Below the pieces are notes generated by a model. That model had not been told where the DNA came from and searched no databases. It saw nothing but the letters and a program-made list of their open reading frames with translations. Below are positions 10,895-22,572 of a stretch of DNA of 22,572 nucleotides, one piece after another. The first letter of the stretch is position 1. Each line of letters begins with the position of its first letter. Source of the DNA: a virus; the IMG/VR virus record IMGVR_UViG_3300033571_007070, positions 1 to 22,572 of that record; one strand, given 5' to 3'. The translations under genes and the position numbers were made by a program.

Positions 10895-11323
10895 ATGGCA
10901 CAGACAGTTGGTACAGTTCTGGCAAAAAACATGAAGCTATATTTTGGCGCGACTGCATTGACGTGCCAGGTAGATGTTTCTATCTCCGGCTCTACAAACA
11001 TGTTCGAAACAACATGTAAAGACAGCGGGGCAAACTCTGCTTTCCTTCCCGGTTCAAAATCTTGGACAGCAAGCGGAACGCTAAACTACGCGGATGATGC
11101 CACCCTTGGTTTTGGCACATCCACGACGGGTATTTTCGACAAATGGGACGGGCAAGGCACCGTTTCCGTAGTCTTCCAGACCGGAGCAAGCGGTGACCGC
11201 AAATGGAGCGGCACGGGCTATGTTTCGAGCTGGACTATGAATAGCTCCGGCAATGATGAGGCCGTAACCGTGGATTTTGAGATCCAGGGAACAGGCGCAC
11301 TTGCTATGGCTACAATCAGCTAA
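10895..11323 (+). CDS. Major tail (tube) protein
   Basis: The subunit of the non-contractile tail tube. This 142-residue, beta-rich protein resembles the TP901-1/Phage_tail_2 group: KNMKLYFGATALTCQVDVSI (10-29), a TNMFETTCKDSG segment (matching i..TtKdS), PGSKSWTASGTLNY (the g...w..s..g....d pattern), a WDGQGTVSVVFQTG strand pair, and GTGYVSSWTMNSSGNDEAVT toward the end. The A-rich leader (ataaacaaataaacacactacact) suggests strong expression, in keeping with a high-copy structural protein. The tail assembly chaperone genes follow directly, as expected for this position. Confidence 0.87.
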   Translation: MAQTVGTVLAKNMKLYFGATALTCQVDVSISGSTNMFETTCKDSGANSAFLPGSKSWTASGTLNYADDATLGFGTSTTGIFDKWDGQGTVSVVFQTGASGDRKWSGTGYVSSWTMNSSGNDEAVTVDFEIQGTGALAMATIS

Positions 11324-11340
11324 TCAAACAACAACATGGA

Positions 11341-11694
11341 ATGACAACCTATTTGAATTTGGATGGCGTAGAGCGTCCGGTGCGTTTTGGTTTTGGTGCT
11401 TTGTACCAATACGAACAGCGTACCGGACGCAATGCCCTGGAGGATTTTGCAAAGATGGCAGGCGGGGCGGTTTCAATCACTTTGATGGTTGACTTGCTCT
11501 TTGCCGGACTTGTAGCAGGGCATAGGCATGAAAAAGTGCCAGTTTCTTTTAATCAGGACGATGTAGCAGAATGGATGACCCCTGAAGTGCTAAATCAAAC
11601 GGCCGTAATGTTCACAGACGCATTTCCAGCAGAGCAGCAGGAGGGCGACGGCGAAAAAAAGACGAAGCCCCCGAAAGTGAAAGTGATGGCCTAA
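11341..11694 (+). CDS. Tail assembly chaperone, short form (gpG-like)
   Basis: A 117-residue protein in the position of lambda gpG, between tube and tape-measure genes. It begins with a strand pair (TYLNLDGVERPVRFGFGALYQYEQ), has GRNALEDFAKMAGGAVSITLMVDLLFAGLVAG (29-60) and ends in a lysine-rich tail. Such proteins coat the tape measure and recruit tube subunits, and are not part of the virion. The end of the gene carries a slippery A AAA AAG (11655-11661). Ribosomes that do not slip make this short form, ending EKKTKPPKVKVMA. A -1 shift joins its first 107 residues to the downstream T frame. Confidence 0.85.
   Translation: MTTYLNLDGVERPVRFGFGALYQYEQRTGRNALEDFAKMAGGAVSITLMVDLLFAGLVAGHRHEKVPVSFNQDDVAEWMTPEVLNQTAVMFTDAFPAEQQEGDGEKKTKPPKVKVMA
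11639..11661 (+). promoter_or_regulatory. -1 programmed frameshift site with SD-like stimulator
   Basis: The heptamer A AAA AAG (11655-11661) is in the correct phase of the G frame (GAA AAA AAG). It is the same slippery sequence as in E. coli dnaX. An AGGAGGG lies at 11639-11645, 9 bases upstream, near the spacing of the dnaX Shine-Dalgarno-like stimulator. After a -1 slip, reading continues at GAC (11661) in a frame open to 12050. I see no obvious strong stem-loop immediately downstream. Confidence 0.85.
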
Positions 11695-11705
11695 GATGGC
11701 AACGG

Positions 11706-12050
11706 TTGATCGAGATGGGGGCGGCGGCTGGATTAAAGGAAGATGAGTTTTGGTCTTGTACGCCACGCTATTTGTATGCCTTGCAAAAGGCAAAGAGGGA
11801 CGAAAGTCGGCAGTCTTGGGAACAAGCCAGGTACATAGGATTTTGGTCTTTAAAGGCGGCAGGATCTAAGGTTAAAAGCCCTGAAAAATTGGGTAAATTC
11901 CCTTGGGAAATGCGGCAAGTGGTATTCCCCAAACAATCCATTGAGGAGCTAAAGAAGTTTGATGAGGAGGCCGATTTAATACTCAAAATGACTAACCCGG
12001 AAGCGTACGAACGCTACATAAAAGCAAAGGAGGCGCAAAATGACGGCTAA
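11706..12050 (+). CDS. Tail assembly chaperone, T extension (gpGT by -1 frameshift)
   Basis: This frame is open without interruption upstream through the slip site, so the real product is most likely a G-T fusion. The fusion has 107 residues of G, then 129 codons from 11661, about 236 residues in all; its junction reads EKK then DEAPESESDGLRWQRLIEMG. The T part has GLKEDEFWSCTPRYLYALQKAK, the FW.lTP.el motif seen in T-type chaperones, and a charged C-terminus. The TTG at 11706 is only the first in-frame start-like codon and is not preceded by a convincing leader, so independent initiation is the weaker reading. Its end overlaps the tape measure gene by 11 bases. Confidence 0.8.
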   Translation: MIEMGAAAGLKEDEFWSCTPRYLYALQKAKRDESRQSWEQARYIGFWSLKAAGSKVKSPEKLGKFPWEMRQVVFPKQSIEELKKFDEEADLILKMTNPEAYERYIKAKEAQNDG

Positions 12051-14580
12051 AGACTTACTTCTTAGGATAGGCTTTTTGTTTGACGAGAAGTCTTTGGCGA
12101 ACGTTTCTAAGCGGCTTCAAAAAAGCGGCGAACAGCTGTCCCGGATCGGTACAGACCTTACACTTTCCTTATCGGCTCCATTGGCAGCCTTTGGCGCTGC
12201 ATCCATCAAAGCGGCGGGCGATATTGAAAGCCTTACCCTTGCTTTAAAATCACAGTTAGGAAGTAGTGAAGCGGCTGCGGCGGAGTTGGACAAACTGACT
12301 GAAGCGGCCAAAAACCCCGGCCTTGGTGTAGAGCAAGCCGTTCGGGGCTCCGTTCGTTTGCAGGGTGTTGGCCTTGCAGCGGATGAAGCCCGTGAAACGC
12401 TTATCCAGATGGGTAACGCTATTGCAGCCACGGGCGGAACGGCTCAGGAGCTTGACAACGTAACGCGGCAATTCGCCCAAATGATCAGCAAGGGGCGCGT
12501 CCTTCAGGAAGACGTTTCTATCTTGTCTGAAAATATGCCCGGCCTTGCCCAGCTTATGCAAAAGGCCTTTGGCACTCAAAGTGTGGAGGCAATCCGGGAA
12601 ATGGGTGTGGGCGGCAAAGAGTTTGTCCAGCGCATCACAGAGGCGGCAAAGGAATTGCCACGGGTAGAGGGTGGTATAAAGAACGGGATTGGCAATGCGA
12701 TGGACAGCCTAAAGCAGAGCGCTGCAAAGGTGGGTTTGGCTATAAATACGGCCTTTGATGTAACGGGCTTAATAGAATCTTTTTCAGGTGGACTTTTGGC
12801 GGCTGCAAATGCTTTTGCAAGCCTCGACAGCGGCGTGCAAAAACTAATCCTTTCCCTCGCTGGCATTGTCATTGCCACGGGGCCGGTGGTGAGCGCCTTT
12901 GGAGCTATTAAGCAATTTGCCGGAACGTTTGTGTCAATATGGGCAAATGTCCTATCCAGCGTAAAAGCAGGCATAACAGCTTTTAAAGCCCTGGACACGG
13001 CAATGAAGTTAACTGTAATTGGTGGGCTTATTGCGGCAGTCGGATTATTGGCGGCGGCGTATACTCATTTTTCTTCGCAGCTTACCGATGCAGAGCGGGC
13101 GCAAAAATCACTAAGCGAGGTTAACCGAAAAGCGGCTGAAAGCGTAGCAGGGCAAAAATCAGAGGTGGACACCCTGGTAGCGGCATACAAAAGCGAAGGC
13201 GCTACACTTGACCAAAAGAAGGCCATACTTTCAGAGCTTAACCGGATAAGCCCCGAATATTTTGGAGGGATACGGGTAGGTAAAGGAGATATTGAAGCGA
13301 TTACAGCGGCCACGGCGAAATATAGCGCGGAGCTTATCCGGGTGGCAAAGATTACAGCGGCAAAGGATAGGCTTGTAGAGATTGAAAAAGAGTTGCTAAA
13401 CCTGAATAAGACGGCACAGCCTTCCATCATTCAATCGGTTGGTAATGCCATTTTAAGTTTGGGCAATGTTTCAGGGTTTGCCGCTAAACAAGCGCAAACA
13501 GCAGCGACTAACATTGTTAATAAAACAAAGGCTTTAGAGGCAGAGCGCACGGTACTGTCTGGTGTAATTACACAACAGGCACTTGCAGATGCGGCAAACA
13601 ACAAGCTAACCGACTCTACAGAGGATCTTACCAAGGCAACAGGGGCTTATGCCGACGTTCTTAAAGAAATTAGCCAAGAGGTTGCAAAGGCACAGATATT
13701 TGGCGAAAACGAAGATATAGCCAAGTTAAAGGCGCTTGAAAGCGGGATTAAGTCACTTATTGATAAAGGATTTAAGCCAGCTTCAGCAGAGGTTAAAAAT
13801 CTTGTTGCTGAATACGAGGCGTTAAAAATAGCCATTGATTCCAGGGGGCCAAGGATTGACACGACCAACCTGCCAGCGGCTCCGGCCACTTCCGTAACAT
13901 CAACAGCCGAAAACCCACTACCAGCGGCTCCGGCATTGATCGAAGCGGCAACTACCCAACTAAAACTATATTCAGAGGCGGCGGCGTATGCTGCAGATAT
14001 TCAAGACCAATTAAACCAGGGGATTTTCGATTTTTCCACCGGGTTAACCGGCGTTACCGAACAGCTTTTAGAACAAGGCAACCTATTAGGCGGCGTATTT
14101 GTGAGCATGGGCAATGCCATTTCACAGGCAGCGGCACAGGGCGAAACATCCTTTGCTAAACTTGGTCAGGCAGCAGCGGGCGCGGCGGCAAAGATTATCC
14201 GGGCTTACATTCAACAGGGTGTAGCTGCGGCGGTGGCAAAGGCATTAAGTTCCGTACCGTTCCCCCTAAACCTTGCAGCGGGCGCGGCGGCGGGCGGTCT
14301 TGCAGCGGCTTTATTTACGCGGGCGGTTGGTGCAATAGGTATTAAGGGTTTCGCCCGTGGTACTGGATATGCCCCAGGCGGCTTGTCGCTTGTGGGTGAG
14401 CAAGGCCCGGAGCTTGTTAACCTTCCACGCGGCTCGCAGGTGTATTCCAATCCAAAAACAAACAGGATGCTTGATAGTATGGGCGGCGGCGGTATGCTTA
14501 GTGGAGAATTCACCGTAAGAGGCACAGACCTGGTATTGGTATTAGAACGAGCGCAAAACAAAAATCAACGGTTTAGATAA
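12040..14580 (+). CDS. Tail tape measure protein
   Basis: At 846 residues this protein sets tail length and would be ejected with the DNA. The N-terminal segment has the tape-measure domain (LSLSAPLAAFGAASIKAAGDIESLTLALKSQLGS, then NPGLGVEQAVRGSVRLQGVG and SGRV-like LQEDVSILSENMPGLAQLMQKAFG, about 45-180). Hydrophobic stretches at about 268-305 and 325-345 may span the host membrane during ejection. The middle is helical. The C-terminal region is Ala/Gly-rich and ends with GGLSLVGEQGPELVNLPRGS, the common tape-measure C-terminal motif. A perfect AAAGGAGG lies at 12026-12033, 6 bases before the ATG, unusual in this non-SD context. At 0.15 nm per residue the tail would be about 125 nm. Confidence 0.93.
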   Translation: MTAKDLLLRIGFLFDEKSLANVSKRLQKSGEQLSRIGTDLTLSLSAPLAAFGAASIKAAGDIESLTLALKSQLGSSEAAAAELDKLTEAAKNPGLGVEQAVRGSVRLQGVGLAADEARETLIQMGNAIAATGGTAQELDNVTRQFAQMISKGRVLQEDVSILSENMPGLAQLMQKAFGTQSVEAIREMGVGGKEFVQRITEAAKELPRVEGGIKNGIGNAMDSLKQSAAKVGLAINTAFDVTGLIESFSGGLLAAANAFASLDSGVQKLILSLAGIVIATGPVVSAFGAIKQFAGTFVSIWANVLSSVKAGITAFKALDTAMKLTVIGGLIAAVGLLAAAYTHFSSQLTDAERAQKSLSEVNRKAAESVAGQKSEVDTLVAAYKSEGATLDQKKAILSELNRISPEYFGGIRVGKGDIEAITAATAKYSAELIRVAKITAAKDRLVEIEKELLNLNKTAQPSIIQSVGNAILSLGNVSGFAAKQAQTAATNIVNKTKALEAERTVLSGVITQQALADAANNKLTDSTEDLTKATGAYADVLKEISQEVAKAQIFGENEDIAKLKALESGIKSLIDKGFKPASAEVKNLVAEYEALKIAIDSRGPRIDTTNLPAAPATSVTSTAENPLPAAPALIEAATTQLKLYSEAAAYAADIQDQLNQGIFDFSTGLTGVTEQLLEQGNLLGGVFVSMGNAISQAAAQGETSFAKLGQAAAGAAAKIIRAYIQQGVAAAVAKALSSVPFPLNLAAGAAAGGLAAALFTRAVGAIGIKGFARGTGYAPGGLSLVGEQGPELVNLPRGSQVYSNPKTNRMLDSMGGGGMLSGEFTVRGTDLVLVLERAQNKNQRFR

Positions 14581-17500
14581 TGGCAGTTAGGCTAACAGGC
14601 ACATTTTACGACATAAACGGGGCGGAATATCGGGTGGATATTCACGATGCTGATTTTGTGGGCAGTTCCGACCCTTTTACCGTAAAGTATTGCACTATTA
14701 GCTACGACAGCAATGATAATAACGACTTCAATGCTCCGATCATTGGAAGCCGGGCAGAGGTCGGTATGGTGGTGGACTTTGAGGATACGATACTACCGAC
14801 TTTCATAGAAGATTTTGCAGGCGGTTCCGAAAGTCGTTTTTTCTTGGAAATTACAAAGGTTCTAACTTCTTTGGTGGTTTGGCGGGGCTTATTAACACCC
14901 GACTTTGCAGGTGAAGAAGATACAGCCCCTTACTACACTTTTAAGGTTTCGGCTGTGTGTGGTTTGGCTACGCTAAAGAAAAAGCCCTACCACGATGGCG
15001 CGGCCCTTTATACGGGCATAGAGCGACTGACCAAACACCTTGTTACGGCACTTGCTAAAACAGACCATGCTTCCATGTGGGGCGGTACAGATGCCTTCCT
15101 GAAAACGTCGGTAGACTGGTGGGCGGTGTCAATGTCAAGCGGGGCAAATGATGACTCTTTATATCAGGGCGGTGTCGATCATTCCGCTTTTTACAACTTC
15201 CAACAACAGGGAGGCGTAGATAAAGACGTAATAAGTAGTTACGACGTTTTATGGCAAATCCTAAAGACGTTTAATTGCCGGATATTCCAAACAGAGGGCG
15301 TATGGTGGGTGGAACAAATACCCTACCGGACAGCTTCGCCGTATTATTCCAGGGCGTACCAGAAAGACGGCAGCTTTATATCTTCAGCAACCGTATCAGG
15401 GGCAAATGTCATAGACCAAACCAGTACGGGCGCAAAGCTGGCAACTATGACATACGACTTCCTTCCGGCTCTTAAAAAGTCAGAGGTTAATTACGATGTC
15501 AAGATTAGGCGCAATTTCCTAAACGGGGCAAACCTGACAACGGGAGCGGATACGATTAACTTTGATCAGGCTATATCTGCCAACGGTGGGGATGCCATAA
15601 TGAGGTTAAAAGGTCAAATTTCCTTTGGGATTAAAAACCTTAGCTATTCGGGCGGCGCAAACGATGTGCTTTTCTTTGTACCTAATATAAAGCTGAAAGT
15701 GGGCAGTAATTACCTTTTAAGGGATTACGCCATTTCTAACTTTACAGCTCAGATAGACCCGCCTGAATGGACAGCAAACAGCGCAGACCGTATTTATTTA
15801 CCACACAATATTGGGGTGGTTCCTGCGGTGGGCGCGCAAGTGAATGGTACAATCAATTTTGAGATACTCACCCCGGCATTGCCTTCAGACGGCGATGACA
15901 ATCAGTTGGTGGTTACAGCGTCCGGCCTTCAGAAGTGGGACGGCGGCGGCGTTTCTAATTCTCAGTTTCAGATATTTTGGAGCGCCTCCAACTTGTTCCT
16001 GGAAGTGTACGATGAAGGCACGCCCGTTGTTTCAGAGGATCAGATACAATACACCGCAGATAATCCGGATGACTTTAGTGAGGTGTACGAAACTACAATT
16101 CGCCTTGGTTCGGCTTTACTGTCAAATAGCGCCGGGCGTATATTCAGATGGAACGGTTCTATATGGGTGAACGCAACCGATTGGGGCCAGGGTGTAGGAA
16201 CGAGAAACAAGGCAATAGGCGATCTATTGGCGCTAAACATACTTAATGCCAGGATTTCACCGCGCAGGCGGCTAAACGGCTCCATGTACGGCGATTTTCG
16301 TATGTTCCGCTTGATGCAAACGCTTGACGGGAATAAATGGATGATGTCAAGCGCCAACTGGGACATAGGCAAAAATACCATACAGGGAGCCTGGTTTTTG
16401 CTTGACTATGGCAGCGCGGGCGTATCAGCTACTCCAATTAAAAAGAAGGTAATACCAAACGGGCCTACATACCCGCCAATACCAGACCCAACAAACCCGA
16501 CAGGCTTAATAAATACATCAAGCGGGTTTAACATCAACCCGGCCCCTACTGTACTGGCTCCGGTTGCTTATAATGCCCTGGATGGCGAAATAGTAGAGGG
16601 CGCAACCGTTACAAGCATTGCAATCAAAACAGCTTCTACAGGTAGCGAGTTTTTGGCTGGGGATGGTGTCACGCTGGTTAATCCATATACCGGACAATTC
16701 CAAACCTTTACCATTGCCACGGCTCCAACGGCGGGTGCTACGTCTTTAAGTGTATCAAGCACGGCGGCGCTTTATGATTTCCCTGAAGATAGCTACTTGG
16801 TAGTAAAGCAAAACGCTTATTCATTCCGGCTACCACAGGGAACGGCCGAAGGTCAGATTTTGCGGTGGGATAACGCAGCTGAGGAATGGGAGGTTTACAG
16901 CGGCGCGACTGACGGCCATGTTCTTACGTGGGACACGACAAACGGATGGCAGGCAGAAGCAAGCACGGGCGGCGGCGGCAATTACCAGACTTTACGCGAC
17001 GGCGGGGTGGATGCTACGCAAAGAGCTGCGGCAAACTTTGTTAATACGGCACGAATTTCGTTTACCCTGACAGACGACGCAGGCAATAACGAAACGGAGG
17101 TTAGTGGAGATATAATTGCTAACTCAATCGGCGACAGCCAACTAAGGCAGGGCGCGGCGGCTTCTGTGATTGGCAGAAGCGCGGCAACGGGGGGCGATGT
17201 AGCGGACATTGTAAGCAGCGCAAACCACCAAGTATTAAAGCGTAGTGATACGGGTACTTTGATATGGGGCGCTGTGACAACTGACAACATCGCCGACAAT
17301 GCCGTAACAACAGCCAAAATAGCCGACAGCGCCGTAACAACAGCCAAAATAAACGACTTAGCAGTTACCACGGCGAAGCTGGCTGATAATGCCGTGACTA
17401 CGGTCAAAATAACGGATTTAAACGTTACTACGGGCAAAATAGCTAACGACGCGGTTACATACGCCAAACTACAAAACGTCAGCACAAATAACCGGATATT

Positions 17501-22166: not shown

Positions 22167-22572
22167 CCAAGCAAGCGGCGGCGCTTATGTACTCAGTGCC
22201 GCCGCTGCAATATTCACGCTGACGGGGCAGGATGCCGGACTAAATAGAGGTGTACGGTTAACAGCCGACCCAGTGACGTTCACGCTGACGGGGCAAGACG
22301 CTGGATTAAGCAGAGGCGTAACCATAGCAGCCGACGGTGGTACGTTCACGCTAACAGGGCAAGACGCTGGATTAAACAGAGCCTCTTTATTGACGGCTGA
22401 TAGTGGAGTCTTTACGCTAACAGGGCAAGACGCTGGATTAAACAGAGCCTCTTTATTGACGGCTGATAGTGGAGTCTTTACGCTAACAGGCCAGGATGCG
22501 CAATTCTCGCAGGCGGGGCAACTAATTGCAAGCGCGGGCGTATTCACGCTCACTGGAAATGATGCCGGACTA
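22144..22572 (+). CDS. Repeat protein, FTLTGQDAGL repeats (partial, runs off window)
   Basis: An ATG at 22144 opens a frame that stays open to the window edge (143 codons, no stop). The protein begins MLLTLLRNQASGGAYVLSAA and continues into 22-residue units of the form FTLTGQDAGLNRxxxLTADxGx. FTLTG recurs at nucleotides 22213, 22279, 22345, 22411, 22477 and 22543, exactly 66 bases apart. Such repeats recur in phage and prophage structural proteins and probably build a beta-structured fibre or adhesin. The start lies 23 bases inside the previous gene. Because no stop is in the window, a caller that needs complete ORFs would miss it. The total length and C-terminal domain are unknown. Confidence 0.8.
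   Translation, partial: MLLTLLRNQASGGAYVLSAAAAIFTLTGQDAGLNRGVRLTADPVTFTLTGQDAGLSRGVTIAADGGTFTLTGQDAGLNRASLLTADSGVFTLTGQDAGLNRASLLTADSGVFTLTGQDAQFSQAGQLIASAGVFTLTGNDAGL
22213..22572 (+). repeat. 66-bp tandem repeats; one recent exact duplication
   Basis: Six copies of the FTLTG-start unit lie at exact 66-base spacing within the partial ORF that begins at 22144. The outer units differ from each other. The 66 bases at 22348-22413 are repeated without a change at 22414-22479, and the match continues 11 bases further, indicating a very recent duplication by slippage or recombination. Confidence 0.9.

Follow-up and report, generated by a model that had tools for sequence, protein, structure and literature searches.

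dnaX-like signals at a probable −1 frameshift junction in the tail assembly chaperone genes of a phage with a likely Bacteroidota host

Related recoding systems

A −1 frameshift that joins the tail chaperone gene G to an overlapping T frame is expected, and ordinary, in tailed phages. The locus described here shares with lambda G/GT its place between the tail tube and tape measure genes, the −1 direction, a shift near the end of G and a T domain fused to G. It differs from lambda in having A_AAA_AAG as its slippery heptamer, a Shine-Dalgarno (SD)-like element upstream and a potential stem downstream, and its profile matches, which are weak and sub-threshold, are to GTA-type TAC families. The GTA gp10-type chaperones are represented by Phage_TAC_11 and Phage_TAC_6, which are the best Pfam matches of G and T respectively and come in the same order, with scores below the curated cut-offs.

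The nearest counterpart of the signals is in the unrelated Escherichia coli gene dnaX, where an SD precedes the shift site by ~10 nt and a hairpin follows it after 6 nt (PMC11162774). The heptamer is the same and the corresponding distances here are 9 nt and 5 nt, the dnaX spacings being those given in papers and not derived from sequence (a putative dnaX segment was unmatched in E. coli genomes). While the dnaX shift shortens the product, that proposed here lengthens it, and dnaX acts on SD-using ribosomes, with 50% efficiency. The locus has the tripartite dnaX layout on a lambda-type gene pair, and the likeness to dnaX drawn in an earlier sequence-only reading was apt.

The +1 site of Flavobacterium johnsoniae prfB (AGGAGGUAUCUUUGAC) is likewise a frameshift site with an internal SD, in a bacterium where initiation seldom involves SD (PMC8710568). 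It is distinct from the present site in that prfB is a cellular gene with autoregulation and its frameshifting is +1 and stop-codon dependent. In F. johnsoniae the 30S platform holds the anti-SD, which is of little consequence, yet the SD at the +1 site of prfB remains perfect; in Bacteroidia the 16S tail is sequestered with the ribosomes being largely SD-blind (PMC8710568). The level of prfB frameshifting in F. johnsoniae has been reported to be low (PMC12421855).

The chaperone locus and its reading frames

The window, that is the whole stretch of DNA analysed, is a virus record of 22,572 bases (IMG/VR IMGVR_UViG_3300033571_007070, positions 1–22,572). Upstream of the tail genes are terminase, portal and capsid genes, the terminase being called by similarity, and the order around the site is of siphovirus type: a neck or tail-completion gene, major tail protein, G, T and tape measure protein, with all features given below on the plus strand. 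The major tail (tube) protein gene (10895–11323; PF06199 above cut-off, phrog_1407) is directly 5′ of G, and the tape measure protein gene (12040–14580; PF20155 TMP_3, E 2e-19) starts within the end of T. Between them is an overlapping ORF pair, as expected of G/GT pairs. G, the zero-frame tail assembly chaperone of 117 aa (11341–11694), is assigned from its ORF, gene order and weak profile matches, and the T domain, 129 aa in the −1 frame after the slip (11661–12050), from its open frame, weak profile matches and a conserved motif.

Across the site the codons of G are GAA AAA AAG, and the heptamer A_AAA_AAG at 11655–11661, in phase with G and invariant in the clade, sits within a run of seven A's (11654–11660). 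Reading in the −1 frame meets no stop from 11586 until a TAA at 12048–12050. The sequence-only reading had placed the heptamer exactly to the base, and its coordinates for AGGAGGG, 11639–11645 and so 9 nt 5′ of the heptamer, hold, as do the open −1 frame through the junction to 12050 and the junction peptide that it wrote, EKK-DEAPESESDG. In-phase X_XXY_YYZ heptamers number 24 in 398 positions of G/T overlaps versus 15 in 2263 positions elsewhere in G genes, and this approximately 9-fold greater density argues that the heptamer at the junction is more than chance. Other in-phase A_AAA_AAG or A_AAA_AAC heptamers are present in window genes at 959 (terminase), 10924 (major tail) and 21252 (a late gene), and none of these three has an SD-like element upstream.

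G matches PF11836 Phage_TAC_11 (GTA gp10) weakly (E 0.0018; 18.7 bits against a curated cut-off of 27.8) and phrog_2115, ‘tail protein’, with E 1.8e-7; T matches PF09550 Phage_TAC_6 weakly (E 0.0054; 17.6 bits against 23.4) and phrog_16333 with E 4.3e-10. The relatives match the same two Pfam families, also below the cut-offs, with the T of the best relative reaching 22.4 against 23.4. Together with the gene order, the weak matches of both proteins support their being a tail chaperone pair. The AlphaFold2 model of G has a mean pLDDT of 82, with residues 99–116 below 50, and a model of T is a set of helices with a mean pLDDT of 87; neither model has a match in the PDB. An FW..TPR motif of T is conserved in relatives. 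The last ~18 residues of G, encoded by the region of the SD-like element and slip site, are predicted to be disordered, and because both elements fall within this predicted disordered tail the protein constraint on them is weak.

Conservation of the junction among relatives

Relatives, designated here by L numbers, were collected by searches with G and a search with T, and have identities from 100% down to ~25%. The search with T gave 39 distinct junctions, and at 38 of these T occupies the −1 frame relative to G; in the exception, L116, the ORF that the script paired with T resembles another upstream gene. The comparison of the heptamer across related phages, proposed in the sequence-only reading, gave an in-phase heptamer of slippery type within the overlap at 43 of the 46 junctions scanned (for L111, which is the same contig as L062, the heptamer picked by the script may differ from the one used). 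A_AAA_AAG is carried by the window clade, L090, L092, L112 and a marine group, A_AAA_AAC by L091–L110, and the lambda heptamer, G_GGA_AAG, directly before the G stop codon, by one branch of the family, L118–L155. The frame relation is conserved in the marine relatives too, many of which have nine to ten A's at the site versus the seven of the window. With L109 (L061), L113 and L114, T is again in the −1 frame and the overlap, without a canonical heptamer, has a G run only, with the codons CCG GGG GAA in L109 and CCG GGG GAG in L114 (CCG GGG GAR) and GCG GGG GAG in L113; that slippage there is on GGGG is a guess.

A further member of the T family is present in MT835789 (L159), a human gut phage record without annotation, where T is in the −1 frame after GAA AAA AAA AGG (A9). 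The products of Cellulophaga phage phi39:1 genes gp19 and gp20 (NC_021804; L156 10330–11056), annotated as hypothetical, resemble the same chaperone pair. Their junction, an A8 run, has no SD; T is in the +1 (or −2) register there, and its open frame reaches 5′ beyond the annotated gp20 start as far as the run of A's.

Host and the use of SD at gene starts

SD-like motifs are at the starts of one of the 24 window genes, with 1.7 expected by shuffling, and so are not enriched; the corresponding figure for Cellulophaga phage phi39:1 is 0/47, and for the positive controls, a Microcystis phage and a Rhizobium phage, 16/31 and 18/33. The sole such motif in the window is a GGAGG that precedes the tape measure ATG by 6 nt (12029–12040) and falls within the end of T; L001–L005 share it and L007–L014 lack it. 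Distant relatives of the tape measure protein occur in Cellulophaga and Flavobacterium phages, a relative of T matches phi39:1, and phi39:1 G aligns with the G profile at an hhalign probability of 93%. This lack of SD enrichment, the distant Cellulophaga and Flavobacterium phage matches and the links to phi39:1 make a Bacteroidota host likely on sequence grounds. The sequence-only reading had taken a Bacteroidota host as its setting, and that much is favored, though the assignment is indirect and no host can be named. Portal, capsid and terminase matches were also considered and are scattered over many phyla, and so are uninformative about the host. Two scans of 84,980 species genomes yielded no prophage relative.

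The downstream stem

A 7-bp stem, overlooked in the sequence-only reading, can form between GCCCCCG (11667–11673), 5 nt 3′ of the heptamer, and UGGGGGC (11716–11722; TGGGGGC in the DNA). In all members of the window clade the 5′ arm, GCCCC(C/U)G, begins 5 nt after the heptamer. The long-range pairing, found by folding and pair counts, is intact in 97.6% of cells, and one change, C-G to U-A, is compensatory; L010–L014 have one mismatch, and in L007–L014 a nearer hairpin competes with the distal stem. That proximal hairpin is absent from the window's own group, and was not retained as an element. Single folds place the stem only mildly ahead of shuffled sequence (z −0.8 to −2.1), and the evidence for it is modest, coming from six distinct sequences in which the arms are also protein-coding. 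The stem is a likely stimulator of the proposed shift. The distant relative L068/L143 (IMGVR_UViG_3300020192_000126) has an A9G site and, directly 3′ of it, a hairpin of 19 pairs including one G-U. This hairpin is a candidate for a very strong structural stimulator, and suggests that the family makes use of such stimulators.

The SD-like element

The window clade consists of four lineages (the window, L007, L008/L009 and L010–L014) with G identity of 61–65%. In it GGAGGGCGA-N5-AAAAAAAG is invariant while the five bases between vary, and GGAGGGCGA is unchanged in L001–L014 at the same spacing to the heptamer. Pairing of the AGGAGGG site with the 16S tail ACCUCCUUU has a calculated duplex energy of −10.8 kcal/mol, within the best 0.3% of window 17-mers. 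In published SD-stimulated −1 shifts the spacer is 9–14 nt long (PMC5009743). A branch comprising L090/L115 has AGGAGGCAACCGG before A_AAA_AAG with a 7-nt spacer and L092–L094 have AAGGAGTCAGG with a 5-nt spacer, both spacers being below that range. An SD is missing from most of the remaining branches, L091–L110 and L118–L155 among them.

Pitted against a role in pairing is the possibility that the frameshift is real, with the heptamer and stem acting, and that AGGAGGG merely encodes an acidic, glycine-containing linker (Q-E-G) that has been kept by descent. We give this a little less than an even chance. When synonymous codons are resampled in each sequence alone, with the amino acids given, the SD-like element has P values of 0.08–0.25, which are not significant and speak for linker coding, as do the proposed shifting without an SD in the sister groups L091–L110 and L118–L155 and the A8 run without an SD in phi39:1. 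The reported SD-blindness of Bacteroidia ribosomes (PMC8710568) also favors it. Set against it is the codon before GAG, which in the four lineages is CAG, GGG, CAG and CGG, so that the amino acid varies (Q, G, Q, R) yet the codon always ends in G; from codon usage, the probability of a G-ending codon followed by GAG has a product over the four lineages of 0.0011 if they are independent, though they share ancestry. Also counting against linker coding are the exactly constant spacing, the third bases of the SD codons, which are identical in the four lineages at 3/3 positions versus 19/98 columns (19%) upstream in G, and the occurrence of AGGAGGCAACCGG ahead of the same heptamer in the L090/L115 branch. 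The conservation gives moderate support for frameshifting being raised by pairing of the element with the 16S rRNA. Its being a second stimulator, with AGGAGGG pairing to the 16S rRNA tail as in E. coli dnaX, is plausible, and we put this at about even odds.

Proposed mechanism and its alternatives

From the frames, elements, conservation and lack of T starts observed, we infer that ribosomes undergo programmed −1 frameshifting close to the end of the tail chaperone gene of this siphovirus-like phage, with the products and stimulators proposed here, at a probability of about 0.93. Most ribosomes would terminate at 11692–11694 to give G of 117 aa, and a minority, after slipping on A_AAA_AAG and re-pairing as AAA AAA, would continue to 12050 and yield a G-T fusion of 236 residues; T would be reached by frameshifting only. 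By analogy with lambda, G would coat the tape measure protein and T recruit the tail tube protein, with the efficiency of slippage fixing their ratio. For lambda the ratio of the two chaperone products is about 30:1, for which a low slip rate suffices (PMC5009743). Slippage of a few percent is all that a tail chaperone requires, so even weak SD stimulation could be sufficient. The G/GT assignment of the sequence-only reading is strongly supported by gene order, the weak profile matches and the relatives with the same frame relation and without a separately started T, and as judged by sequence comparison this is a genuine, conserved and ordinary G/GT frameshift with dnaX-like signals.

Slippage of the transcribing polymerase, not of the ribosome, on the A run could also yield the extra product, and the A7 of the window and the nine to ten A's of many marine relatives are in keeping with this. 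It is nevertheless very improbable, as the bacterial cases reviewed use approximately nine A's or T's (PMC5009743), the run in the clade stays at seven with constant spacing to the SD-like site and stem, and elsewhere in the family the heptamer is A_AAA_AAC or G_GGA_AAG, of which G_GGA_AAG has no long run. Expression of T as a separate gene from TTG 11706 or ATG 11715, both present in the window, is scarcely credible, since these codons are missing at that place in L007, L008 and L010 (which have no ATG, GTG or TTG before T codon 25; L122 has none in its first 27 T codons), the conserved T residues DEAPES...LIExGA are upstream of both and precede every possible start codon in the window clade, and no relative found by the T search has a T with its own conserved start. 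Separately and well-started T genes in relatives were among the refutations that the sequence-only reading had named, and their lack, with the conserved T residues ahead of start codons, argues strongly that frameshifting is the route to T.

With ribosomal frameshifting as the preferred reading, the value of the locus is that its SD-like element has the spacing of dnaX and belongs to a phage whose gene starts lack SD. It is a tentative proposition, to which we give rather less than even odds, that in a phage group with hosts that are SD-blind at initiation the 16S tail retains a function in elongation, the tuning of a −1 frameshift; if true, Bacteroidota have kept mRNA–rRNA pairing as a signal for recoding. 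For tail chaperone frameshift sites of Bacteroidota phages, the literature searched, mostly without subscription papers, makes no mention of an SD. The family provides a ready comparison set, with an SD site here and none in L091–L110 and L118–L155, the long hairpin of L068 and the long A run of the marine group.

Elsewhere in the window there are 30-bp repeats within a large tail protein gene (17270–17351), and near the right end tandem 66-bp repeats (22213–22490).
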